Assembly (NCBI GenBank): GCA_018645845.1 | Contig: JABGVY010000541.1 | Span: forward strand, 1 to 33,552 | Reading direction: 5' to 3' | DNA from: Gammaproteobacteria bacterium | GTDB lineage: Bacteria; Pseudomonadota; Gammaproteobacteria; Pseudomonadales; Azotimanducaceae | Length of the DNA stretch: 33,552 bases | Part shown: one piece after another, positions 8,627 through 23,097 of the stretch | Layout: every line of letters starts with the position of its first letter | Position numbering within the stretch: the stretch's first letter is position 1 | The notes under the pieces: model-generated | Seen by the model: only the letters and a program-made list of their open reading frames with translations | The model's database searches: none | What the model was told of the DNA's origin: nothing | Translations under genes and position numbers: made by a program

Positions 8627-10399
8627 ATGATGGTCCGAAAAAACAGTCTGCACCGACTAACTTTCTCAATGTTTCTAGCTTTGATGCTCATCACAGTTTG
8701 CGAAGCCAATGAACCGTTGCCCGAGGCCGTGCCCCGAAGCATTGAAACCATTGCCGATGATTACGTCGAGGCATTACTCTTACGCTATCCCAGCATTGCG
8801 ACTTCTTACGGGTTGCAAGGCAGACGACATAACCGACTTTTCGATAATTCTCTTCCGGCCCTTTCACGCTGGCAGGCGAAAGAAAATGCCCTTCTAAAAG
8901 AACTACTTGGGCAGGATGCAACGTTTACCGTCGGCAGCCGGGACTGGGTCACTTATGGGTTTCTTATCGAAACGCTCAGCGCTAGCCAGGCGACGCGAAC
9001 CTGCCGAAAGGAACTTTGGGAAACCAGTACCGCCACAGCCTGGCACACCGGTTTACCGTTCATTTTTGATGTGCAACCGCTCGCAACAAAAGCAGAGCGG
9101 GACGATGCACTGATACGTCTGGATGCCGTTGCCGGCTATATCGATACGGAAATCAGTAACCTGACGCTGGGTCTGACGAAAGGTTATTCCTCTCCCCGAC
9201 TCACCGTGGTTGAAGTCCCCGCTCAAGTTCGAGCCTTACTCAACCCGGACAACCCTTTCCTGAACATGGGTCGACGGTCTGGTGATAGCGGGTTCGAGGC
9301 CGCTGTAAGCACTATCTATGAGCAATCTATTCAACCCGCTCTCCATCGATTTATCGATTACATCGAAACCCAGTACCTACCGAATGCCCGAACTGGAATC
9401 GCGATCAGCAACAATCCTGACGGCGCGCAATGCTATAAGGCTTTGATTCGAGCGTTCTCTACCCTACCGGCAACGCCCTCCGAGATTCACGCTGTGGGAC
9501 TTGTGCAAATGGCCGGCATTCGAGCAGAGATGCGCGCTGTAATTGACACCCACTTCAACGGTGAAGCCACCGAAACATTCCTGCGACGTATCAATCAGGA
9601 CCCGGAGTTCACCTTTGAGAGCGAACAAGCCGTACTCGAGTTTTCGATACAGGCGCTGGCCCAGGCGCGCCCCAGAATGAATGAAGTCTTTGACCTACTG
9701 CCAAAAGCATCGGTATTGATCAAACCTTATCCCGACTTTGCGGCTAGCGGCAGCGGGGAATACCATTCCTCCTCCGAGGATGGCACACGACCGGGAATCT
9801 ATTACATTGCAGTAGGCGAACCCAACTTACGGACCCAGGCAACCCAACAATCCACGCTCTATCATGAAACCTATCCGGGCCACCATCTTCAAGGAGCACT
9901 TGCGCTCGAATTAGGTGACAAGGTTCACCCTATCGCACGCTATCTGGGCAATGCGGGCTATGGCGAGGGTTGGGCGCTTTATTCCGAAAGACTTGCGGAC
10001 GAGCTCAATCTTTACTCCCGGCCGTTGGACCGAATGGGCTTATTGTCCGACCAGGGCGCCAGGGCGGCCCGGATGGTCATCGATACCGGCATTCATACCC
10101 TGGGCTGGAGCCGAACCCAGGCGGTCGACTACATGCTCAATAATTGCGGCTGGTCTCGACTCGACATTGAAAACGAAATCAATCGCTACATTTCCTGGCC
10201 TGGCCAGGCCAACGCATACATGTTGGGTATGCTCGAAATCAATCGCTTACGCGCATTGGCACAAGACCAACTAGGCACGCAATTTGACCTGAAGACCTTT
10301 CACCGGCGGGTTCTGGAAAATGGCAGTGTCACCTTGCCCATGGTGGAAGCCGCGATTCTGGATTGGATAGAACCCACACCAATCAGAGCGCCTCGTTAG
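8627..10399 (+). CDS. DUF885 family protein (putative metallopeptidase-like), secreted
   Basis: 'YHETYPGHHLQGALALELG', 'GYGEGWALYSERLADE' and 'YISWPGQANAYMLGMLEI' are DUF885 hallmarks. N-terminal signal-like segment. Confidence 0.9.
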   Translation: MMVRKNSLHRLTFSMFLALMLITVCEANEPLPEAVPRSIETIADDYVEALLLRYPSIATSYGLQGRRHNRLFDNSLPALSRWQAKENALLKELLGQDATFTVGSRDWVTYGFLIETLSASQATRTCRKELWETSTATAWHTGLPFIFDVQPLATKAERDDALIRLDAVAGYIDTEISNLTLGLTKGYSSPRLTVVEVPAQVRALLNPDNPFLNMGRRSGDSGFEAAVSTIYEQSIQPALHRFIDYIETQYLPNARTGIAISNNPDGAQCYKALIRAFSTLPATPSEIHAVGLVQMAGIRAEMRAVIDTHFNGEATETFLRRINQDPEFTFESEQAVLEFSIQALAQARPRMNEVFDLLPKASVLIKPYPDFAASGSGEYHSSSEDGTRPGIYYIAVGEPNLRTQATQQSTLYHETYPGHHLQGALALELGDKVHPIARYLGNAGYGEGWALYSERLADELNLYSRPLDRMGLLSDQGARAARMVIDTGIHTLGWSRTQAVDYMLNNCGWSRLDIENEINRYISWPGQANAYMLGMLEINRLRALAQDQLGTQFDLKTFHRRVLENGSVTLPMVEAAILDWIEPTPIRAPR

Positions 10400-10503
10400 C
10401 ACTCGCGCCAATAGAAGCGCTCACCTACTTAACAGGGGGCTGATACCCACGGAGAAGAGTGCATGAGTAGCCCGTAATCATCCAAAAGGGCCCGACCAGC
10501 TGA

Positions 10504-11121
10504 TTAGTAAAGCGTCGTTGCTTCGTGTTCCCTAAGACCCTCGTCCAGCTCATCCACGGCGATACTAAGTTTGCCGTGATCGACCAGCGCTTCGCCATAG
10601 GTCGGTAGGCCATCGACCGGGCCCCACCGCTCTGGCGACCAAAGGTTCGATCGCACCACAGCCTTACCGCAGTGAAACATCGCTTCTTCAACGTGCACAA
10701 TAATCGCAAGGCTCGGCGTTTTACCATTGACTGTCATGGTCTCCATCAGCGATGGGTCGCGCGTCAGACTCGCGCCGCCACTAACCCGAACCACTTCTCG
10801 TCGGTTTGGCACCATAAACAGCAAACCGGCACGTGGGTTCTCTAAAATATTTTGAAAGGTATCTGCTCGATTATTGCCCGGTCGGTCGGGTATGGCGATG
10901 GTGTTCTCGTCTAACACCTGCCAGGCGCCCAGCGGATCCCCTTTGGGCGCCACGTCAATTTGACCCGACAGGCTGTAGGTCGACAGGATCAAAAAGGGCG
11001 ACCGCTCTATCCATGCTCGACAATGATCATCGATGTGATCAATGCACTTCGTATCCTGGGTGTATTTTACCTCTCCGATTAGGTCTCTGATTTCAGCAAT
11101 TGAAGTGATGCGATTTACCAT
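10504..11121 (-). CDS. Pyridoxamine 5'-phosphate oxidase (PPOX)-type FMN-binding protein
   Basis: 'PFLILSTYSLSGQIDVAPKGDPLGAWQVLDENTIAIPDRPGNNRADTFQNILENPRAGLLFMVPNRREVVRVSGGA' is a PPOX flavoprotein pattern. Confidence 0.85.
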   Translation of the reverse strand: MVNRITSIAEIRDLIGEVKYTQDTKCIDHIDDHCRAWIERSPFLILSTYSLSGQIDVAPKGDPLGAWQVLDENTIAIPDRPGNNRADTFQNILENPRAGLLFMVPNRREVVRVSGGASLTRDPSLMETMTVNGKTPSLAIIVHVEEAMFHCGKAVVRSNLWSPERWGPVDGLPTYGEALVDHGKLSIAVDELDEGLREHEATTLY

Positions 11122-11409: not shown

Positions 11410-12396
11410 ATGTCGCAACCAAAGTCATCAGCAACTGCAAGTGTGCAATCCACCTCCCCTTTTCTGGCGGCCACTAACGACCCAGCCCTGAAGCGAACCA
11501 TTGAGCGGGTTGATAAATTGGGTTTAACGAGCAATCTATTAGAACTCAACCTACAGGGTTATACGGTTGTAAAATCTGTCCTATCTCAAGATCGAATCGA
11601 TCGGGCAAAAGCGGCGATTCTCCGTCGTGTTGAAAGCACTGTGCATAAATCGATCGATCCCCACACGGCAACCAGCGATGACTTCAACGGAATGAGCTAT
11701 CAGCACTATCTTCTTTTCGATGACGCGGTTTTCCCGGAAATCTTGCTTGAACCGAAACCCCTGGCGTTGATTGACTATTTATTAGGAGAAAGCTGTGTTC
11801 TTTCCTCAATGGGAAGTCATTTTCGAGGACCGGGCGGCATGCCGTTGGGGATCCACGCCGATGGACAAACTGATGGCTTCCTTACCGACGCAGCGTCAAT
11901 CGCCAATTGCAATTATGCACTCACGCCATACAGCCAGGAGCAAGGTGCTTTAGTGATATTTCCCGGCAGTCATCTTAAAAAACGTCAACCAACGCTGCAT
12001 GAAAATTGGAAAACTAATGACGAGACACTTGTCGACATTATGGACAAGAAACTTAGCCGATTAGAACTAGATAATGTGAACTGGAAGCTTCCTCACGGTG
12101 CCGTAACCATGGACGTTGAACCTGGCGATGCGGTCATCTGGCACGGAAATACATGGCATGGAGGTTGGCGCAGAGATGCTCCAGGCGCGCGCATTAACCT
12201 TGCTGCCTATTTTTGCAGGCCATTTATGTCGACCCAAGAGCGACGCGGCGATGACAGATACCCAGAAGTTTTCGCACGCTATGCCGATGATCCGAGGTTC
12301 GCAAAGCTATTAGGCGAGAAAACCTTTAATGGCTGGCGAGAAGAGGGACCAGACTTCACCGGCCAAAAAACGAGCCCTCGAGGACTTTACGATTGA
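11410..12396 (+). CDS. Phytanoyl-CoA dioxygenase (PhyH) family protein
   Basis: 'GIHADGQ' (HxD metal motif), 'LVIFPGSHLKKRQP', 'GDAVIWHGNTWHGG', 'RINLAAYFCRPF'. Confidence 0.85.
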   Translation: MSQPKSSATASVQSTSPFLAATNDPALKRTIERVDKLGLTSNLLELNLQGYTVVKSVLSQDRIDRAKAAILRRVESTVHKSIDPHTATSDDFNGMSYQHYLLFDDAVFPEILLEPKPLALIDYLLGESCVLSSMGSHFRGPGGMPLGIHADGQTDGFLTDAASIANCNYALTPYSQEQGALVIFPGSHLKKRQPTLHENWKTNDETLVDIMDKKLSRLELDNVNWKLPHGAVTMDVEPGDAVIWHGNTWHGGWRRDAPGARINLAAYFCRPFMSTQERRGDDRYPEVFARYADDPRFAKLLGEKTFNGWREEGPDFTGQKTSPRGLYD

Positions 12397-12501: not shown

Positions 12502-13833
12502 CTACTGTAGCTTCTGCATCATTAGCGCCTCAGTAGAATCAAGATCCGCGCGCAATGATCTTGCACCCATAAAGTAATGAAAAGCTGCCCATAGGTTCGC
12601 TAAAACACACAGACACAGGGCATAGCGTAGTGAGTCAATCCTGAATTCTGGTGAAAGCAGGTCGCTAGCGATACCGACAAAATATGGGCCTAACCCCATG
12701 CCGATGATATTCAACATGAACAACAACAAAGCAGAGGCCACCGCTCGCATCCTCAAGGTCACCAGACCCTGGGTCATGGCGAAAGATGGCCCAAGATACA
12801 TGCCCCCCAATACTGAAACGACCGCAAGGGCTGGTATGACTGCAATTAAGTCTTCGTATAGATAGGCAGTGAACTGGAATGGCACCATGAGAAGGGTCGA
12901 AATCCCGGCAATCCACAAATACCAGCGCCTGTCTGCGGTCCAGTCGCTGACCTTGTCTCCAAGATATCCTCCAGCAAAAGTGCCGATAGCGCCGATACCT
13001 GAGATTATCGCCAGCCACGAACCGACTTCTGTAATAGGCATTTCGTGACTGCGAATCAGGAACGGCGCATTCCAGGTTCCAGCGCCGTAACCGACAAAGG
13101 CGTGCAGGCCTGCAGCGAAGCCGATGTGCCTGAAGGAACGACGGTGCCAGAGAAATTTAAAGACCTCTTTCAGCGAGGGTGCCGGCTCTGTAGTTTTAGC
13201 GACCGCTGCTTTGACTGCAGCGGTTTCAGATAAGCCTCTGGGTGGTTCGCGTAGTGTCCCGAGTATCAGCAGTGCGACAAAAATTCCAGGCACACCCACC
13301 AGGAAGAAAGTCATTCGCCAGCCAAGCTCTGATGCGCCCCAGCCTCCCACATAGTTGCCGATCATGGAACCGAAAGGGATGCCCAGAGCATAAATGGACA
13401 ACGCCGTTGCTCTGGACTCGATGGGGAAATAGTCCGAAATAAGTGAGTGCGAGGGCGGACTAGCGCCTGCCTCGCCTACGCCGACACCTATTCTTGCAAG
13501 CAGAAGCATCGTAAAGTTACTTGCTGCACCACACACTGCCGTCATCGCACTCCATATTATCATGGAGATCGCGAGAACCTTGGTGCGGCTCCAACGATCT
13601 GCCAGGGAGGCTATCGGAATACCGAGGGTTGCATAGAACATCGCAAACGCGAGCCCGCCAAGTAAACCCAGTTGTGTATCTGTGAGCAATAGTTCGTTTT
13701 TAATGGGCTCAAGTAGAATAGAGAGAATAGAGCGGTCGATGAAATTAACGACATAGCCAAGGAACAGGACGCCCAGGGCATAGTTTCTATATTTCTTCGA
13801 GTAGATCGTGTTTGCAACGCTAACATCTGACAT
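12502..13833 (-). CDS. MFS transporter (Spinster-like)
   Basis: 12-TM pattern: 'NFIDRSILSILLEPIKNELLLTDTQLGLLGGLAFAMFYATLGIPIASLADRWSRTKVLAISMIIWSAMTAVCGAASNF' and 'RIGVGVGEAGASPPSHSLISDYFP'. Confidence 0.9.
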   Translation of the reverse strand: MSDVSVANTIYSKKYRNYALGVLFLGYVVNFIDRSILSILLEPIKNELLLTDTQLGLLGGLAFAMFYATLGIPIASLADRWSRTKVLAISMIIWSAMTAVCGAASNFTMLLLARIGVGVGEAGASPPSHSLISDYFPIESRATALSIYALGIPFGSMIGNYVGGWGASELGWRMTFFLVGVPGIFVALLILGTLREPPRGLSETAAVKAAVAKTTEPAPSLKEVFKFLWHRRSFRHIGFAAGLHAFVGYGAGTWNAPFLIRSHEMPITEVGSWLAIISGIGAIGTFAGGYLGDKVSDWTADRRWYLWIAGISTLLMVPFQFTAYLYEDLIAVIPALAVVSVLGGMYLGPSFAMTQGLVTLRMRAVASALLLFMLNIIGMGLGPYFVGIASDLLSPEFRIDSLRYALCLCVLANLWAAFHYFMGARSLRADLDSTEALMMQKLQ

Positions 13834-14023
13834 ATTTGATCTACATCCACATTGATATGGTCGGTTAATCTCCGACTGTATCAGGTTTGAGAGCAGGAAC
13901 TATCAAACGGGAATAGATACAAATAAAAGTATTTTCCCAAAACTGCAAAAATACCCGAAAGGGGGCATCTCTGGGAATAGATCCTGATAAATGCCTGGCC
14001 CTAGTTTTCGCGGGGTTTTTATC

Positions 14024-14262
14024 TGAAACCTTGGGCCAGGCTGTGGTGAAGAATCCACCAGGTATTCACTGTTCATCACCGCGATTGCTGGAAACAGCGA
14101 GTTTGCTTCGCGTGATTATCTGGCATTCCGAACATTGCATGAGGATCTTGATGCCAACAATCATCTGGTTGAGCCATCACCTATTACTGAGTAGACGGGG
14201 TATGATCTTGCGCAAAGCTTCAAGGGGAAAAGTTGGGAGGATGCCATGAATTCAGGCAGGCA
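14024..14262 (+). pseudogene. Possible decayed cassette ORF interrupted by an in-frame TAG
   Basis: One frame reads '...STRYSLFITAIAGNSEFASRDYLAFRTLHEDLDANNHLVEPSPITE*TGYDLAQSFKGKSWEDAMNSGRQHN' up to attC-1, with a single TAG at 14192-14194. Family not identified. Confidence 0.3.
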
Positions 14263-14376
14263 ACATAACATGCGCTTGAAGTCACGCCCCGCGGGAGCTA
14301 GGATGAAACGACCGCGGTTCAAATGTGAAACACATTTGAACCCTCGGCATCTTAAACGCTTAATTGGGTGTTAGGT
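14263..14376 (+). repeat. Integron attC site 1
   Basis: R''-like ACATAAC (one mismatch to RYYYAAC) and R' GTTAGGT. Arms partly complementary: ATAACATGCGCTTGAAG against the reverse complement of CGCTTAATTGGGTGTTAGGT, with an unpaired G. Central palindrome CAAATGTGAAACACATTTG. Confidence 0.82.
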
Positions 14377-14382
14377 GACTCC

Positions 14383-14706
14383 GTGATTCACAAGTGTCCA
14401 GCATGTGGCTACCAGCTTTCAACATGGGAGAAACTTCTTAACAATTCCTCTGGCAGTTGTTGTCGCTCATGCATTAGAACTGTCCTAGTAGCGAGTAAGA
14501 AAGTCCAGCGCCTGGAATTGTTAATATTTGTCGTTACACTCTGCTCGATAATTGTGGCTCTCCCGACACTCAACCTGGATGAGTGGATTGCAGGTGGGTT
14601 GGCCTTACTAATTCTCCTAGTAAGTTTCGGTTTGATAATTTGGATTCGACTCAAGGCGAACCTATATGCAAAGGAACCTCCACCTATGGATGGGGGCGCC
14701 ACCTAA
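14383..14706 (+). CDS. Cassette ORF A: small membrane protein with N-terminal zinc-ribbon-like CxxC pairs
   Basis: GTG start just inside the cassette, stop overlapping R'' of attC-2. 'HKCPACGYQL...CCRSC' plus two TM helices. Located between attC-1 and attC-2. Confidence 0.7.
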   Translation: MIHKCPACGYQLSTWEKLLNNSSGSCCRSCIRTVLVASKKVQRLELLIFVVTLCSIIVALPTLNLDEWIAGGLALLILLVSFGLIIWIRLKANLYAKEPPPMDGGAT

Positions 14707-14816
14707 CATGCCGTTGAAGTCGTTCCCTACGGTCACTCGGAACAAGCAACTTGTCACCTGGCTTGCTTGCGCAACCCAAGCGCCAGCAGTCCTGTCCGCT
14801 TAATAGGTTGTTAGGC
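14701..14816 (+). repeat. Integron attC site 2
   Basis: R'' ACCTAAC and R' GTTAGGC. Arms ACCTAACATGCCGTTGAAG and CGCTTAATAGGTTGTTAGGC pair with an extrahelical G. 116 bp. Confidence 0.88.
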
Positions 14817-14819
14817 GTC

Positions 14820-15314
14820 ATGGAGAGTCCCACTGAGCTGCTACGATGGACGTTAATTTTATCGTGTTTAGGCAGTGGAATGATGGCTGGTCTTTTTGTC
14901 TCTTTCTCAACATTCATGATGAAAGCACTTGGTTCACTGGATTCTTCGAACGGAATGCAAGCGATGCAGGCGATCAACCGTACCATCTTAAGACCAAGCT
15001 TCTTATTGGTGTTCTTAGGAACCGCAGTTCTAGCGGCAGTATCCGGGTTTATCGCCTATGCATTAGTCAAGCCTTGGCTATATATCATTGCCGCAGCCGC
15101 GATATATATTTTTGCTTGCATTCTCTCAACTGGATTATTCAATGTCCCTCTAAACAACCTCTTGGAGCGAGCTGATGCGGAAACAGATGAAGGACAACGT
15201 CTCTGGAGAGATTACCTAAGTCAATGGACAAATTGGAATCATGTGCGGTCATTCGCCTGTGTGTTGTCGACGATACTCCTTGCATATTCACTCTCTGAGA
15301 CCGGGGGACTTTAA
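14820..15314 (+). CDS. Cassette ORF B: DUF1772 / anthrone oxygenase-like membrane protein
   Basis: ATG 4 bp after the attC-2 R' box. 'LSTGLFNVPLNNLLERADAETDEGQRLWRDYLSQWTNWNHVRSFACVLSTILL' matches the DUF1772 pattern. Confidence 0.8.
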   Translation: MESPTELLRWTLILSCLGSGMMAGLFVSFSTFMMKALGSLDSSNGMQAMQAINRTILRPSFLLVFLGTAVLAAVSGFIAYALVKPWLYIIAAAAIYIFACILSTGLFNVPLNNLLERADAETDEGQRLWRDYLSQWTNWNHVRSFACVLSTILLAYSLSETGGL

Positions 15315-15321
15315 CGTTGCC

Positions 15322-15429
15322 GCCCAACATAGAGTTCAAATCGCTTTGCTCGGTGCCATGTAGCTGTCATTTGGCTTGCCTACGCAACCCAAACGCCCGG
15401 CAGCTGCGCCGCTTAACTGGTTGTTAGGC
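15322..15429 (+). repeat. Integron attC site 3
   Basis: R'' GCCCAAC and R' GTTAGGC. Arms GCCCAACATAGAGTTCAAA and CGCTTAACTGGTTGTTAGGC pair with one extra base (C). 108 bp. Confidence 0.87.
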
Positions 15430-15438
15430 GGCAAGCGT

Positions 15439-15903
15439 GTGACTGCTGCATCTCAGATCAGCAAAATCCTTACGGCCTACTATGGCCTTTATCAAGCAGT
15501 CCACATTCTGGTGAACATTCGCGGCACATGGATACTTATGTCTGGCTCCCAACTCGATTTTCCTGCGCCACCTCCACCATCTGGTTGGCCTGTTGAGGTT
15601 ATCCATTTCATGATTGCGATTGGTGTACTTGATTTGATGAATGCAATCGCTTCGGTATTCTTTGTTTACGCGTTCTTTCATCGCAGACCTAACGCTTTCT
15701 GGCTAGGCAACCTTACGCTCTCAATTTCAGTTTATGCGTTTGGACTTTATACTTACTGGACATATGCAAGCAATGCATGGGTGGCGGGTAATATTTGGGC
15801 TTATGTGTTTGTTTCAGTTACATTCATTCCTATACTAGTTTTGTGGTGCATGTATTGTTATTGGGGCATTCGGAATGAACTCAAATTTGGTAAGCGCGCC
15901 TAA
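15439..15903 (+). CDS. Cassette ORF C: four-TM membrane protein of unknown function
   Basis: GTG start 10 bp after R' of attC-3. The TAA stop is inside R'' of attC-4. Hydrophobic segments throughout. Confidence 0.7.
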   Translation: MTAASQISKILTAYYGLYQAVHILVNIRGTWILMSGSQLDFPAPPPPSGWPVEVIHFMIAIGVLDLMNAIASVFFVYAFFHRRPNAFWLGNLTLSISVYAFGLYTYWTYASNAWVAGNIWAYVFVSVTFIPILVLWCMYCYWGIRNELKFGKRA

Positions 15904-16011
15904 CATGCAGTTGAAGCCGCGCCCTGCGGGCGCTCGGACGAAGTACCTGCGGTCAAAATGTGAATCACATTTTGATCCTCGGCGTCTTCGCCGCTTAACT
16001 GGGTGTTAGGC
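15898..16011 (+). repeat. Integron attC site 4
   Basis: R'' GCCTAAC and R' GTTAGGC. Arms GCCTAACATGCAGTTGAAGC and GCTTAACTGGGTGTTAGGC are strongly complementary with an extrahelical G. Central palindrome CAAAATGTGAATCACATTTTG. 114 bp. Confidence 0.92.
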
Positions 16012-16013
16012 GG

Positions 16014-16481
16014 ATGAACTCCAAGCATCGATGGACATCAAGATTCGTGGTTTTTGTCGCAATTGTACTTCTCTGTAGCGGGTGCGGTCGTTTTGTAGAA
16101 CGCGAGCTTCAAGGAGTTGGTGCAAGAGCACCTAGTGACTTTGAGTTTCTTGGTGACAAGTATCCTTGCTATCTAGAACTAGAGAAAGGAGAGGTCGCCT
16201 TGAGGGTGAACTGTTTTGAGATAGGTGGGTCACTACACATACACTCCTCTCGCTGGGCAAACTTGCCGAGATTTGAAGGAGAAAGCTGGAGAGATAGCAT
16301 ACGTAGGCAGCCTGAGGTCAGGATTGAGATAGAAAAGAAGATATACGCAATGACGGCAACAGTTATTGATAACGAGGAGCTTCGTCGGAGAATGCTAAAA
16401 GATCGCGGCTACATCTACCCCTGGTCGGGAATCACCATTTTTCGTTTTGAACCCCTATCTAAAAACGAGATTCGAGGGTGA
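16014..16481 (+). CDS. Cassette ORF D: lipoprotein of unknown function
   Basis: ATG 3 bp after R' of attC-4. Signal peptide with lipobox 'VVFVAIVLLCSGC'. Confidence 0.72.
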   Translation: MNSKHRWTSRFVVFVAIVLLCSGCGRFVERELQGVGARAPSDFEFLGDKYPCYLELEKGEVALRVNCFEIGGSLHIHSSRWANLPRFEGESWRDSIRRQPEVRIEIEKKIYAMTATVIDNEELRRRMLKDRGYIYPWSGITIFRFEPLSKNEIRG

Positions 16482-16485
16482 CGTC

Positions 16486-16532
16486 TACCATGCTGCAGTT
16501 GACGCCGTGGCTTCGCCACTCGGACGCAGTCA
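16486..16532 (+). repeat. Truncated/degenerate attC (left half only)
   Basis: GTCTACCATGCTGCAGTTGACGCCGTGGCTTCGCCACTCGGACG aligns with the left half of attC-4 (GCCTAACATGCAGTTGAAGCCGCGCCCTGCGGGCGCTCGGACG). No GTTRRRY R' box follows before the next gene. Confidence 0.65.
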
Positions 16533-16570
16533 GCCGACACGAATTGATTACTGGTTTTTACACTACTTCT

Positions 16571-17782
16571 TCAAACTTCGAGTGTGACGTCCCTCACACC
16601 AAATGGAAAAGCTGACACTCCCTGGGCAGCCTTTCGTCTTATCCGCTGCGAGCCCAGCGCAAACCCCGCTAAACGGCGAACGGGTTCGCCCCACCACGCG
16701 CGACTGAGTACAATTTTTGGCGGTTTCGCCTGCAGGTTTTGAATGTAATCAACCTCAATTCTGCGTTCTTTCTCTATGCTCTGCAGTGCGGAGGTCATCT
16801 CTGTTACTGATGTCGACGGGTTGTTCAATATAGGCACCAGATAATTAGCGGCAACAATCGCATCGCGCAGCGCAATATTGACGCCCTGCCCACCCACCGG
16901 TGACATCGTGTGCGCGGCATCCCCAATCAACAAGACCCCGGGCCCACTCCAACTATCGACGCAGTCAGACACGGTATCAAGGAGAAAAGGCTTTTGGGCA
17001 GCAGCGCTGTGAGCCCGTAAATGAGCCGCTAAATCGGGTGACACATGGCGCGCCATTTCTTCTATCCATGCTTCAATTCCTTTGTCGCGAAGCTCTCCAA
17101 AGGTCCCCTTAAGAATAACCCACCCTAGTTGCAAACTGTGATCCCAGGTATGGTATGCCACTAGCAAATGTCCACGACCAACATAGGCTTTTACGCCTGG
17201 CCAATCCTCCGGGCAAGGAAGTTTGCACCAGACAATGTCCATGGGAGGACTATTTTCGGTCACACCGTGATCGAGATGTTTGCGGACTACCGAGTTTCGA
17301 CCATCTGAACCGATAACCAGGTCGGCTGGCAGAAACCTATCACCGTCATCATCTCGAATGGTGACACCTGTAACAGCCCCACCTTCCTCAACCAATTCTT
17401 TCACTGACACGCCACGTTCAAATTTAAACCTGGGAAGTTTTTCGGCTTCTGCCACAATGGCTTCAAGTAGCGCAGGTTGAGAAATCGCAAGCGGGGGATG
17501 TCCCTGAAAAAACTCAGGGTCGAGATGTTCGGCCACTATCTGCTTGCTATTCATGTATAACGTAAAGTCTGGCGCGGCATGACTATCTGTTTGCGCCAAC
17601 GCTTCACCGAGCCCCATCTGATGCAGTGCTTCGATTCCACTAGGCATCAAGATTTCACCACGAAATTCCCTGGCGAAATCTCGACGCCGCTCCACCAGTG
17701 TCACAGCTATGCCACGATTCGCCAGCAAATAGGCAATACTTGCGCCTCCGGGCCCTGCGCCAACGACCACCACGTTTTTCAT
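16571..17782 (-). CDS. FAD-dependent monooxygenase (group A aromatic hydroxylase family)
   Basis: 'VVVVGAGPGGASIAYLLANRGIAVTLVERR' GxGxxG and 'VLLIGDAAHTMSPVGGQGVNIALRDA' FAD motif. Confidence 0.88.
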   Translation of the reverse strand: MKNVVVVGAGPGGASIAYLLANRGIAVTLVERRRDFAREFRGEILMPSGIEALHQMGLGEALAQTDSHAAPDFTLYMNSKQIVAEHLDPEFFQGHPPLAISQPALLEAIVAEAEKLPRFKFERGVSVKELVEEGGAVTGVTIRDDDGDRFLPADLVIGSDGRNSVVRKHLDHGVTENSPPMDIVWCKLPCPEDWPGVKAYVGRGHLLVAYHTWDHSLQLGWVILKGTFGELRDKGIEAWIEEMARHVSPDLAAHLRAHSAAAQKPFLLDTVSDCVDSWSGPGVLLIGDAAHTMSPVGGQGVNIALRDAIVAANYLVPILNNPSTSVTEMTSALQSIEKERRIEVDYIQNLQAKPPKIVLSRAWWGEPVRRLAGFALGSQRIRRKAAQGVSAFPFGVRDVTLEV

Positions 17783-17842
17783 GGCTAAGCCTTATGAGAC
17801 GTTTAAAAAAAAGAGAATAACTATTTTCACAGGGATATTCAG

Positions 17843-17861
17843 TCGATATTCTGAATATCGA
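17843..17861. promoter_or_regulatory. Palindromic candidate operator upstream of the FAD monooxygenase
   Basis: TCGATATTC-T-GAATATCGA, perfect 9-bp arms, about 60 bp upstream of the start codon. Confidence 0.4.
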
Positions 17862-17970
17862 AGCAGCATCCAATGGCTTTCAATTAGCGAGCAACGGAAA
17901 TTGATTGCCTGATAACCGCTATACACTGTCAGGGGCTGGCAAAGCGTTCGGGTTGCGTAGCTCAAAATGG

Positions 17971-18771
17971 CTAAACAAAATCAACCTCAATGGAACCTGA
18001 TTTTCCATAATCAGCAAAGACACGATCCCCCGCCTTCACAGGCACGGGCCTTGTAAACGAGCCGGAGAGAATAACCTGGCCAGGCTCAAGGGCGATTCCA
18101 TGCGGAGCGAATCGTTTGCACACCCAGCGGATACCATGTGCAGGATGGCCCATCACCGCCGCGCCCATACCTGAATCTTCAATCTCATCATTAAGATAGA
18201 GCAAAGAACCAGCCCATTTGAGATCTATATCCTCCGGCGCAACTTTCTCGCCACCACAAATTATCCCGGCATTCGCCGCATTGTCAGCAATAGTGTCACA
18301 CACATTTCGGGTATAGCCCGTTTCAGGATCGACCCGACGACTTCTAGCCGAAATGAGTTCAAGCGCGGGCTGTACATAATCCGTGGCGTCCATCACCTCT
18401 TGAATAGAAACATTGTCTCCAAAAAGTCGCTTTTTCATCACGAACGCAAATTCTGATTCAATTCGCGGATCTAAATAATCTGCGGCTTTAAGCTTCGATT
18501 GATTTGGGAACAGCATCGCATCTGTCAGCACACCGTAATCCGGCGTATCGATATTCATCGCAACTTGCATCGTGCGCGAGGTCAGGCCGATCTTATATCC
18601 AATAATTTTTTCGCCATCCCTCAGCCTGCTGTCTATCCAGGCTTTTTGAATAGCATAGGCGTCGTCCATGTCCATACTAAAAGACATCGATAGCGCCTTA
18701 ATTTGTTCATGTTTCTTTTCCGCCTGGTACAGACGATCCGCCGCATCCGTAATCTGTTGTTGGGTCAACAT
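17971..18771 (-). CDS. hpaH: 2-oxo-hept-3-ene-1,7-dioate hydratase
   Basis: 'IIGYKIGLTSRTMQVAMNIDTPDYGVLTDAMLF', 'PRIESEFAFVMKKRL', 'GHPAHGIRWVCKRFAPHGIALEPGQVILSGSFTRPVPV' is HpaH-like, in hpa context. Confidence 0.9.
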   Translation of the reverse strand: MLTQQQITDAADRLYQAEKKHEQIKALSMSFSMDMDDAYAIQKAWIDSRLRDGEKIIGYKIGLTSRTMQVAMNIDTPDYGVLTDAMLFPNQSKLKAADYLDPRIESEFAFVMKKRLFGDNVSIQEVMDATDYVQPALELISARSRRVDPETGYTRNVCDTIADNAANAGIICGGEKVAPEDIDLKWAGSLLYLNDEIEDSGMGAAVMGHPAHGIRWVCKRFAPHGIALEPGQVILSGSFTRPVPVKAGDRVFADYGKSGSIEVDFV

Positions 18772-18772
18772 C

Positions 18773-19141
18773 CTAAAAATTCCTGCTGTTAAACTTCACC
18801 TTTTCTTCCAACTCCCGCATCTCGTAAGAGAGCGTCACCGAATACTCAGCCATCAGCGGCTCGAGATGTTCCAGCATGATTTTCCAGAACGTTTCACCGG
18901 CTTGCATTCTGGTCGGTTCATCGCGGCCGCGACCCACTTTCATACTGAGGTTGAGAAAACCTTTATCAGGGGCACCATCGGCAACGCGGAAGTGCTCACA
19001 CTTGATAGCCCTGCTTCTCATTCCAGCCATCGGAAATATATTAGTTTCCGCCGCCTTCTGGTGCATCTTTTGCATTAAGCCCTGCAGGTCTAACAGTTCC
19101 TCTGGCAGATTAGCGGAGTACTCATAAATAAAATGTGCCAT
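18773..19141 (-). CDS. hpaF: 5-carboxymethyl-2-hydroxymuconate delta-isomerase
   Basis: 'MAHFIYEYSANLPEELLDLQGLMQKMH...GMRSRAIKCEHFRVADGAPDKGFLNLSMKVGRGR' is HpaF-like, in hpa context. Confidence 0.9.
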   Translation of the reverse strand: MAHFIYEYSANLPEELLDLQGLMQKMHQKAAETNIFPMAGMRSRAIKCEHFRVADGAPDKGFLNLSMKVGRGRDEPTRMQAGETFWKIMLEHLEPLMAEYSVTLSYEMRELEEKVKFNSRNF

Positions 19142-19167
19142 GTTTTTTACCCCCCAACATCTATAGC

Positions 19168-20016
19168 CTAAACCGGAAACTCAACATTGATTTGCCCCGT
19201 GCCAGAGCTGCCAAAGTAAGGACTGATAACCTCTGCCTTACCTCGGTACTGATCCCACCCTAATGCACCCAGCAACATTGCAGTGTCGTGCATAAATCCT
19301 TCACCGTGACACTTGTTCGCATACTCGGGCAATATTTCCGTGAAGCGTTCCCAGTCACCGTTCTGCCACATTTCAATCACACGATGGTCAAATTCTTCCA
19401 AAAAGGGAGACCAGACTTTATGCAAAAACTCATCGGCGGTACCATTTTGTGCAAACCTGTGTGACAAGGACCCAGAAGCGAATATGGCAACTTTACCGTC
19501 ATAATCATTTTCGATAGCCGACCGAAGCGCCCTTCCCGCGGTCGCGCTATCCTTCAGGTCATGCACCATAAGCAAAGAGGCAATTGAAACCACTTTGAAG
19601 TGCCGGTCTTCATTCATATAGCGCATAGGGACCAGGCTGCCGTATTCTAAACTCAAGCTGGTATCCTCATGAGCCCGCATGGACACCCCTGCTTTTGTGA
19701 CAGCATCTGCAATCAGGTGGCCAAGTTCAGGGTTACCATCATATTCGTAAGGTAAATTTTTAATGAAGTGAGGTAATTCGTTACTTGTATAGATTCCTTT
19801 AAAAAGCGGCGCGTTGTTCAGGTGATAGCCTGAATTGACTAACCAATGTGTATCAAACACAACAATCGTATCAACACCCAGAGCGCGACACCGTCTTGAA
19901 ATTTCCCGATGGCCTTCGATCGCGTGATCTCTGCAACCCTTGTGCGGCCCATCCATCTCAGACAGATACATAGAGGGGACATGCGTAATTTTAGCTGCGT
20001 AGGCGAGTTCGCCCAT
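19168..20016 (-). CDS. hpaD: 3,4-dihydroxyphenylacetate 2,3-dioxygenase
   Basis: 'MGELAYAAKITHVPSMYLSEMDGPHKGCRDHAIEGHREISRRCRALGVDTIVVFDTHWLVNSGYHLN' is HpaD-like. Confidence 0.92.
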   Translation of the reverse strand: MGELAYAAKITHVPSMYLSEMDGPHKGCRDHAIEGHREISRRCRALGVDTIVVFDTHWLVNSGYHLNNAPLFKGIYTSNELPHFIKNLPYEYDGNPELGHLIADAVTKAGVSMRAHEDTSLSLEYGSLVPMRYMNEDRHFKVVSIASLLMVHDLKDSATAGRALRSAIENDYDGKVAIFASGSLSHRFAQNGTADEFLHKVWSPFLEEFDHRVIEMWQNGDWERFTEILPEYANKCHGEGFMHDTAMLLGALGWDQYRGKAEVISPYFGSSGTGQINVEFPV

Positions 20017-20047
20017 GGTAAATCTCCTTCTCTACACTCTAAACGGT

Positions 20048-21577
20048 CTATCTACCCAAGACGGGTACATTGTGAAGGTCATGTGCAATACAAACGTTCT
20101 TGGTTTCCATGTAAAAATCGAAACTAAAGTCACCTCCGTCCCGACCTATCCCGCTGGCTTTCATGCCACCAAAGGGTGATGGCAGGTTCCTGTTATTCTC
20201 GGAATTAAACCAGAGCATACCCGCCTCCAAATTCTTTGCCAGACGCATTGTTCTCCCCACATCTTTAGTCCAGACATACCCAGCCAGTCCGTACGGCGTA
20301 TCATTAGCCATCCGAACGGCATCTTCTTCTGAATCAAATGTCATCGCCGTCAACACCGGGCCAAATATCTCTTCTCTTGCGACCCGCATACTGTTATCGG
20401 CCTCTGTGAATAGAGTCGGGCAAATATAATTACCATCACCCAGGGTTTCTATTGCATAACCACCTACGGCTGTTGTTGCACCATCGCTTTTCGCGACATC
20501 CATATAACTCATGACTTTTTGAAAATGCGCCCGGCTGACAACCGGCCCTACCTCTGTCTCAGGATCAAGGGGATGACCGACCTTCAGGTTTTCTACCCTT
20601 TCTTTAAGCGCAGCCATAAACTCAGCCTGGATCCCCTGTTGCACCAACAACCTTGAACTCGACGTACAACGCTGACCGTTAAGGCTGTAAAGCATAAACA
20701 CCACGGCGTCCAGCGCACGGTCAAAATCGGCATCATCAAAAACGATGACAGGGTTTTTACCACCCAACTCAAAGTGAACGCGTTTTAGCGTATCGGCAGC
20801 CTGGCGCATGATATGCGTGCCGGTAGCACTTTCACCGACTAACGCGACAGCTTTGATTGCCGGGTGTTCTGTCAACCGTTTACCCGCGGTTTCACCAAAG
20901 CCATTGACGGTATTTAGGACACCATCCGGAATCCCTGCCTCTTTGGCAACTTCAGCCAACAGCAGCGCACTCAGAGGTGACATTTCCGCAGGTTTGTGCA
21001 CAACAGTACAGCCCGCCGCAAGTGCCGGTGCAATTTTCCAGGTCGATAGCATAAACGGTGTATTCCACGGCGTGATAACACCCACCGGCCCTACCGGCAT
21101 TCGCATGGTGTAATTGGTATGAACATCCTGGTAAAGCGCTTGGCCATTGACAGCTTCAGGCGCTTTGTCAGCAAAAAAACGAAAGTTGTCTGCTCCCCTG
21201 AGTGCCGCCTGCTTCATAAATCGAATTGGCTGCCCACAGTCCATCGATTCGATCAGTGCGATTTCCTCTGCACGCGCGGCAATTTTGTCTGCAAAGTGGT
21301 TAAGCAGTTTCTTACGAGCGGCTCCAGACATATCCCGCCAGTCGGCGAAAGCAGCCTTGGCGGCATCACAAGCCCGGTCTATATCCTGATTACTACCGGA
21401 CACAACCTTACCGAGTGTTGTATTGTCAACGGGTGTAAAGTTCTCAAAGGTCTCAGCGTTTGTGGGCACTTCAAATTGGCCGTTGATGAAATGCCCTGTG
21501 ATATTCTCACTAAATCTTTGCAGATAAGATTTCGCTTTGCCCAGATTTTCCTCATTGCTCACTTTGTTGTTCGACAT
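20048..21577 (-). CDS. hpaE: 5-carboxymethyl-2-hydroxymuconate semialdehyde dehydrogenase
   Basis: Aldehyde dehydrogenase motifs 'FELGGKNPVIVFDDADFDRALDAVVFMLYSLNGQRCTSSSRLLV'. Position in the hpa operon indicates HpaE. Confidence 0.9.
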   Translation of the reverse strand: MSNNKVSNEENLGKAKSYLQRFSENITGHFINGQFEVPTNAETFENFTPVDNTTLGKVVSGSNQDIDRACDAAKAAFADWRDMSGAARKKLLNHFADKIAARAEEIALIESMDCGQPIRFMKQAALRGADNFRFFADKAPEAVNGQALYQDVHTNYTMRMPVGPVGVITPWNTPFMLSTWKIAPALAAGCTVVHKPAEMSPLSALLLAEVAKEAGIPDGVLNTVNGFGETAGKRLTEHPAIKAVALVGESATGTHIMRQAADTLKRVHFELGGKNPVIVFDDADFDRALDAVVFMLYSLNGQRCTSSSRLLVQQGIQAEFMAALKERVENLKVGHPLDPETEVGPVVSRAHFQKVMSYMDVAKSDGATTAVGGYAIETLGDGNYICPTLFTEADNSMRVAREEIFGPVLTAMTFDSEEDAVRMANDTPYGLAGYVWTKDVGRTMRLAKNLEAGMLWFNSENNRNLPSPFGGMKASGIGRDGGDFSFDFYMETKNVCIAHDLHNVPVLGR

Positions 21578-21602
21578 GCTCTCACCTTAATGCCTTATTA
21601 CA

Positions 21603-21654
21603 TAACATGTTAATCAATAATGCTGGATAATACCATTTTATTGGCTTATTATCC
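21603..21654. promoter_or_regulatory. Divergent hpa promoter region with candidate operators
   Basis: Perfect palindrome TAACATGTTA (21603..21612) and inverted repeat GGATAATA-N14-TATTATCC (21625..21654) between hpaE (-) and the hpaG-like gene (+). Confidence 0.45.
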
Positions 21655-21694
21655 GAATATATCCATAACAAGTTAAGCTATTAAGGTTTTTACT

Positions 21695-22573
21695 ATGCGC
21701 TTTCTCTCTTTCATGAATGGCCACCATTCCGCTCAATCCCATAGCTCCTGGGGCGCCATTACGGAGCAGGGAATCATTGACCTCGGCGGACGAATGAAAT
21801 GCGACTTCAAGCAGGCCATTAGTAGTGGTCGCCTGAATGAGGCGCAAGAGCTCGCTTCCGGGCTATCGCCTGATGTAAACACTGATGAGATCACCTATCT
21901 TCCACCTGTTGCTAATCCCGAAAAAATTGCCTGCATTGGCGTCAATTACGCTAACCGGAACGCTGAGTATAAAGACGGATCCAAAGAAGCAAAATTTCCG
22001 AGTCTCTTTATGCGAACACCCGATTCCTTGGTAGGCCATGGTCATCATCTGCTGCGACCACCTGAGTCAGACCAATTGGATTATGAAGGCGAGATTGTCG
22101 TCATCATAGGTCAGGGGGGTCGCCGCATATCAGAAGACAATGCCTATGATCATATCGCAGGGCTCACTATTATGAACGAGGGGACGATCCGGGACTGGCT
22201 AAGGCATTCTAAATTTAATGTTACGCAGGGTAAGAACTTTTACCATTCTGGTAGCGTCGGCCCCTGGATGGTCACCGCCGATGAATTCACCCCCGCCCTC
22301 TACGAGGATATGACCGTGAGAACTCGGGTCAACGGCGAAGAACGGCAGCACGATACAACCAACAACATGACCTTCCCAATCAAGTACCTGATCGCGTATA
22401 TGTCACAGTTTTTCAATCTAAAACCCGGGGATATGATTGCCACTGGGACGCCCAATGGTGCCGGCGCTCGATTCGAGCCCCCACGCTACCTGAAACCAGG
22501 TGACGTTGTTGAAGTTGAGGTTGAAGGAGTCGGCATCCTGTCGAATGAGGTTATAGATGAGGTTGTTGAATAG
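21695..22573 (+). CDS. hpaG: Fumarylacetoacetate hydrolase family protein (HpaG-like isomerase/decarboxylase)
   Basis: 'KIACIGVNYANRNAEYKDGSKEAKFPSLFMRTPDSLVGHGHHLLRPPESDQLDYEGEIVVIIG' and 'GDMIATGTPNGAG' are FAH family motifs, in hpa context. Confidence 0.82.
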   Translation: MRFLSFMNGHHSAQSHSSWGAITEQGIIDLGGRMKCDFKQAISSGRLNEAQELASGLSPDVNTDEITYLPPVANPEKIACIGVNYANRNAEYKDGSKEAKFPSLFMRTPDSLVGHGHHLLRPPESDQLDYEGEIVVIIGQGGRRISEDNAYDHIAGLTIMNEGTIRDWLRHSKFNVTQGKNFYHSGSVGPWMVTADEFTPALYEDMTVRTRVNGEERQHDTTNNMTFPIKYLIAYMSQFFNLKPGDMIATGTPNGAGARFEPPRYLKPGDVVEVEVEGVGILSNEVIDEVVE

Positions 22574-22624
22574 ATAGTTGAATAGACGGTTGAATAGACG
22601 GTTAAATAGACGGTTAAATAGAAG
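22565..22624 (+). repeat. 12-bp tandem repeat, 5 units
   Basis: GTTGAATAGATA / GTTGAATAGACG / GTTGAATAGACG / GTTAAATAGACG / GTTAAATAGAAG. The first unit contains the hpaG-like stop codon. Confidence 0.9.
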
Positions 22625-22641
22625 GACGACTAGAGGCTTCA

Positions 22642-23097
22642 GTGACTAGCTCACAAAACGAAACACTGCGCGCATTTGATCGCTCACTGCCCATGGCATT
22701 ACTACGTGCCAGGGAAGCAGTCATGAAAAAATTCACTCCTTCATTACGCGAAAACGGTCTATCACCGCAACAGTGGCGGGTCATTAGGGCTCTGAATGAA
22801 GAGGCAGGGCTCGACATCACAGAATTAGCAAATAGATGTTTCTTGCTAATGCCCAGCCTTTCACGAATCATCCAAAACTTGGAGAAACGTGAGCTGGTCA
22901 GTCGAAACCAGTCTTCATTAGACAATCGAAAATCGGTTATATCAATCACTGGGTCTGGCAAGAAACTGTTTCAAAAGATCGCGCCAAAATCAGTTGAACG
23001 CTATGACCTGATAACTGAAAAATTTGGCTACGGTAAGCTTGAGTTACTTTACGAATTGTTAGACGAGTTGATTGAAAAAATTGATGAGAAAGACTAA
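22642..23097 (+). CDS. hpaR: MarR-family regulator, homoprotocatechuate degradation regulator HpaR-like
   Basis: 'RSLPMALLRAREAVMKKFTPSLRENGLSPQQWRVIRALNEEAGLDITELANRCFLLMPSLSRIIQNLEKRELVSR' is HpaR-like. GTG start. Confidence 0.88.
   Translation: MTSSQNETLRAFDRSLPMALLRAREAVMKKFTPSLRENGLSPQQWRVIRALNEEAGLDITELANRCFLLMPSLSRIIQNLEKRELVSRNQSSLDNRKSVISITGSGKKLFQKIAPKSVERYDLITEKFGYGKLELLYELLDELIEKIDEKD

Follow-up and report, generated by a model that had tools for sequence, protein, structure and literature searches.

How does a run of integron gene cassettes, with no integrase beside it, come to lie within an aromatic catabolic cluster? We addressed this question for a 33.5-kb stretch of DNA (hereafter the window), which is the entire contig C438 of a MAG from a marine gammaproteobacterium (4.07 Mb in 591 contigs, 76% complete). 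The array lies on the + strand, with an MFS transporter gene to its left and a FAD monooxygenase gene to its right, both on the − strand; these flanks, proposed earlier from the sequence, were confirmed by matches to Pfam families (Table 1). By the IntegronFinder definition, a cluster of attC sites lacking an integron integrase is a CALIN, and 2,961 of these were found in the IntegronFinder 2 survey (PMC9024848). The window falls in this class (at least two attC sites with no integron integrase nearby), as it holds four sites and no integron integrase ORF in its 33.5 kb, the nearest known intI being on contig C140. It is not a complete integron with adjoining intI and attI: about the last seven codons of intI are all that is present, and no attI was seen at the array.

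The first-pass annotation had described four complete attC-type sites of 108–116 bp, and its boxes, lengths and spacing were all correct. The sites follow the pattern RYYYAAC ... GTTRRRY, with the R″ of attC1 departing from RYYYAAC at one position, and the L″ and L′ arms pair to leave one extrahelical base, in line with the complementarity that had been claimed for the outer arms. Exact matches to the half-site CTTAANNGGNTGTTAGRY occur in the 33.5 kb at the four R′ ends only, which argues that the sites are not due to chance. An Rfam search of the window returned no match. We used two covariance models, both of which recovered all four sites at the positions first assigned. Model R1 comprises the four window sites and one C140 site, and its scores on the window are circular because it was trained on them. 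Model R2 was made from 13 sites of three related genomes (G001, G008 and G013), with those of the window, G004 and C140 excluded, and provides an independent test of attC identity. With all filters off, R2 scored the four sites at 31.9–131.5 bits (E 1.4e-33 to 1.5e-6), the next best match elsewhere reaching 12.1 bits.

The bottom strand of each attC, which would be the folded substrate, was also folded as the first-pass annotation had suggested, giving z-scores of −2.7, −2.4, −1.5 and −6.7 for attC1 to attC4. By single-sequence folding alone attC3 is thus weak; it is without the side hairpin present in the other three sites. In an alignment of 53 sites, 92.4% of cells were paired and 306 had changed on both sides, against 97 in shuffles and 20–58 in slid controls, the alignment having been fitted to the model, with a few opposite-strand copies of strong sites included, and being biased towards structure.

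Table 1. Coordinates of the array, its edges and flanks in the window, and of the integron on C140 (positions of the last row are those of locus L007). G and C numbers denote genomes and contigs.
Feature	Positions	Strand	Evidence and remarks
MFS transporter of catabolic locus (left flank)	12502–13833	−	Pfam MFS_1 1.4e-48; syntenic, about 90–91% DNA identity, in G001:C171 and G004:C100
3′ tail of the MFS gene neighbouring native integrons; frame-broken pseudogene fragment	13993–14194	+	86% DNA identity to G001:C122 beside intI; 72% to G014:C132
Scar of deleted intI: stop and about last 7 codons	14184–14207	−	DHTPSTQ(stop) vs DIFPSTQ(stop); reverse-strand translation vs intI of G001 and G014
Stretch separating the intI scar from attC1, probably a truncated cassette's tail	14208–14262	+	No match in compared loci
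attC1	14263–14376	+	R″ 14263–14269 ACATAAC, R′ 14370–14376 GTTAGGT; 114 bp; R2 79.8 bits, E 1.6e-19; R1 104.3 bits
Cassette A ORF, small protein with N-terminal zinc-ribbon-like CxxC pattern and hydrophobic region	14383–14706	+	Weak NCBIfam TIGR04104, 20.4 bits, under cut-off of 45
attC2	14701–14816	+	R″ 14701–14707 ACCTAAC, R′ 14810–14816 GTTAGGC; 116 bp; R2 72.6 bits, E 1.4e-17
Cassette B ORF, DUF1772/anthrone oxygenase-like membrane protein, 164 aa	14820–15314	+	Pfam Anthrone_oxy 1.2e-16
attC3	15322–15429	+	R″ 15322–15328 GCCCAAC, R′ 15423–15429 GTTAGGC; 108 bp; R2 31.9 bits, E 1.5e-6; R1 71.2 bits
Cassette C ORF, hydrophobic protein, 154 aa	15439–15903	+	Hydrophobicity from sequence
attC4, folds best	15898–16011	+	R″ 15898–15904 GCCTAAC, R′ 16005–16011 GTTAGGC; 114 bp; R2 131.5 bits, E 1.4e-33; folding z −6.7
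Cassette D ORF, 155 aa, lipoprotein-type N-terminus (LLCSGC)	16014–16481	+	Lipobox read from sequence
Left half of attC5, severed at the flank junction	16483–16537	+	86% identity to G001:C122 attC
FAD-dependent monooxygenase of catabolic locus (right flank)	16571–17782	−	Pfam FAD_binding_3 2.6e-42; 92% identical in G001:C171 and G004:C100
C140 integron (L007)	8634–10823		intI, LexA-box-like palindrome at L007:9671, attI-like GTTATAC, single cassette

The sites alternate with single ORFs that lack promoters and all run the same way. These start 2–9 bp past an R′ box (GTG 14383, ATG 14820, GTG 15439, ATG 16014) and stop inside the next R″ or within 10 bp of it, which is the layout of gene cassettes. 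Cassette B has a 63% identical homologue in G013, beside which no attC was found, and homologues of cassette D, about 30–50% identical, occur in other genera of the family, with no attC by them at the loci scanned. Cassette C gave no Pfam or NCBIfam match and, among 59 genomes, is present only in the window genome and G004. The cassettes contain no excess of promoter-like sequences (2 found against 4.0 expected); in place they are probably silent, or weakly read from neighbouring transcription.

At 13993–14199 the window matches G001:C122 (86%) and G014:C132 (72%), and in G013, G014 and G016 the corresponding sequence makes up the 3′ end of an MFS gene, which is arranged tail-to-tail with intI. 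The match crosses the MFS stop, continues into about seven intI codons on the opposite strand and then ends, with attC1 about 55 bp further on. We take the MFS tail and last intI codons at 13993–14207 to mean that intI was deleted here and left a scar; and because the match ends about 55 bp before attC1, intI, attI and the head of at least one cassette are missing in between. The scar past the MFS stop is about 20 bp long and degenerate, and it is mainly the 200-bp MFS tail that points to loss of intI. A near-palindrome at 13993–14041 was considered as a terminator or element end and rejected, as it sits within the MFS tail. Insertion by homologous recombination between MFS paralogues (those of the window and of the integron are about 50% identical) was likewise rejected, because the remnant is opposite in orientation and meets the upstream region of the other gene, not the matching part.

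The site in relatives shows what may have stood there before. In G001:C171 and G004:C100 both flanks are syntenic (about 90–92% identity), and in the array's place is a gene for a TonB-dependent receptor (797 aa, its identity read from the sequence). Comparison with related strains, which had been recommended, thus showed that the cassettes are not collinear chromosomal genes there. Homology with these two contigs stops at about 13990 and resumes at about 16538, and at the right junction CACG is common to the sequences on either side. The feature therefore reaches further than first drawn, to 13993 on the left (the MFS/intI remnant) and 16537 on the right (the half attC). The receptors of G001 and G004 share 93% protein identity, a divergence similar to that of the flanks. 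Because the receptor-bearing state has been seen in two genomes only, the polarity of the receptor and array states is not proven; G019:C55 (a locus with a 66% homologue) and L067 (an 88% locus) were set aside as evidence of polarity, as neither keeps the neighbourhood. The array and its junctions are also found in G004:C449, with about one difference per 2.5 kb, the window assembly and G004 possibly sharing a source environment and so not being fully independent.

We consider it highly probable that this integrase-less array is a broken-off piece of the integron native to the genus, lodged in the aromatic catabolic cluster by illegitimate recombination. The first-pass annotation had read the array as an orphan, or as ectopically integrated, between catabolic loci, a view that holds and can now be refined to a degraded platform piece with an intI scar. 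The ancestral platform would have consisted of the 3′ end of the MFS gene, intI, attI and cassettes. A deletion presumably removed intI, attI and the first cassettes; what survived would be the tail of the MFS gene, some seven codons of intI, the four complete cassettes and the half-site of attC5. Illegitimate recombination would then have joined this piece between the MFS and FAD-monooxygenase genes, the right side possibly through the 4-bp microhomology CACG, and it is likely that in doing so the array replaced the TonB-dependent receptor gene.

Other explanations have to be weighed against this. If the sites were ordinary intergenic repeats amid resident chromosomal genes, and not attC, one would readily understand why relatives hold homologues of cassettes B and D outside detected arrays; the independent R2 matches, the covariation and the presence of the same sites adjoining intI in relatives leave this idea with practically no credence, and the integron-derived nature of the array is near certain. 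A more serious proposal is that an integrase inserted the cassettes, singly or as a block, at a secondary attG-like site where there was never a platform. The same genome does encode a full-length integron integrase, and the literature discusses both off-target insertion at attG and the occurrence of CALINs at dispersed loci (PMC12444791). Insertions made by an integrase end at an R′ box or attG, whereas here the right edge cuts through the middle of attC5 and the left edge consists of an MFS tail and intI codons, which are absent from cassettes. These edges largely refute such an insertion, which we regard as improbable, and the intI scar gives good support to a degraded piece of a platform over the one-by-one insertion of cassettes.

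The direction of the exchange is less constrained, since just two receptor-bearing alleles are known and the copies of a 60–80 bp repeat that flank the G001 receptor could mark its insertion. That the array is ancestral at the locus, and the receptor gene of G001 and G004:C100 the later arrival, nevertheless seems unlikely to us: the receptor and its flanks have diverged alike, which fits vertical descent, and the array, with its truncated ends, looks like a damaged latecomer. Finally, as MAGs whose repeated attC sites hinder assembly, the two genomes might contain an artificial fusion of an integron contig with a catabolic contig. That the junctions recur in G004:C449, which differs at about one position in 2.5 kb, and that they lie outside long repeats, makes this a very remote prospect.

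That no integrase accompanies the array, as the first-pass annotation had stated, is true of the 33.5-kb window and not of the genome. A search for intI and attI elsewhere led to contig C140 of the same MAG, which carries an attI-like site and a full-length integron integrase (TIGR02249, 398 bits against a cut-off of 265); the genome is therefore not without an integrase. That protein has 70% identity to one in G017 but only about 45% to the genus-typical integrase. As the genome is 76% complete, an intI of native type could also exist uncollected. The single C140 cassette is dienelactone-hydrolase-like, and its attC (107.7 bits with R2) is of the same type as those of the window. The attC sites of the window still fold well, so that an integrase working on the bottom strand in its folded form, such as that of C140, could release any of the cassettes in trans, and these might then be re-inserted at the C140 attI. 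At the head of the C140 intI frame there is no ATG, and the earliest of the usual start codons is a TTG at 9593. A further small cassette group of the same genome is found on contig C9 (L056 135–937), where one attC (517–602) lies between two small − strand ORFs near the contig end.

The genus offers several stages of integrase decay with which the window can be compared. G013, a 100% complete genome, has an extended series of same-type attC sites that ends beside an intact intI, and in G008 such sites adjoin a complete intI. In G001:C122, which has an attI region and six attC sites, intI is split by a frameshift in a T run. G004:C353 (L190 3162–3443) retains only about the first 100 intI codons, joined to other sequence near the contig end. 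On G001:C115 (L188 about 8976) and G004:C538 (L189 about 7953) an intact MFS gene is followed by what by eye appears to be a short intI tail, so that the native integron site has apparently been emptied. In the genus intI genes are thus found frameshifted, truncated and reduced to a tail, and the loss in the window is one among several; this agrees with the view of CALINs as degraded integrons (PMC9024848) and the repeated inactivation of intI in Xanthomonas (PMC12444791). A bolder proposal, and a rather doubtful one at present, is that integron platforms of this genus relocate whole, with a recurrent left edge in the MFS gene, and then shed intI, their cargo cassettes being usable by the unrelated C140 integrase.

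CALINs and intI loss are already well known, and what distinguishes the window is an unusually readable history. It shares with other CALINs at least two attC sites, one-direction cassette ORFs and the absence of a nearby intI, and differs in that the scar of the lost intI and the tail of a flanking gene are legible, with another integrase on a different contig. The sedentary chromosomal integron of G013, in the same genus, shares its attC type with the window (R1 scores of up to 117.5 bits), and its intI lies next to the same MFS gene, but it has a complete intI and a long array, whereas the window is at another locus without intI or attI. In Xanthomonas, integrons show lineage-wise intI inactivation and off-site CALINs (PMC12444791). 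The parallels with the window are recurrent intI loss (truncation or deletion), leftover arrays that persist stably, and CALINs dispersed among loci, also near a FAD-dependent oxidoreductase; the lineage is a different one, and its platform neighbour is ilvD rather than the MFS gene. CALINs are very common and have been proposed to be degraded integrons, yet the event that generates them can rarely be read. Here the deleted integrase has left a scar, relatives show the site with a receptor gene, and a single genus contains intI in intact, frameshifted, truncated and deleted form; together these make a small natural series on which to test how integron platforms decay and relocate, and whether a foreign integrase keeps leftover cassettes mobile.

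Some further observations concern the surroundings of these loci. In G001:C122 the whole integron segment (L055 9527–15249) lies between 122-bp direct repeats that are 98% identical, and its MFS remnant is cut within about 15 bp of the cut in the window, the two loci being unrelated. To the right of the array, genes at 17971–23097 form a homoprotocatechuate-type meta-cleavage-like cluster (hydratase, isomerase, extradiol dioxygenase, aldehyde dehydrogenase, FAA hydrolase and MarR regulator, all assigned by eye from translations). The 60–80 bp repeat is present in the window 5′ of the FAD monooxygenase gene (17813–17901), where it may be a shared regulatory sequence, and its copies on either side of the G001 receptor gene are at L051 6921–6979 and 9796–9873. 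At about 11750–12000 the identity of the window to G004:C449 rises from about 90% on the left to 99–100% on the right, which may reflect population recombination or a chimeric contig.
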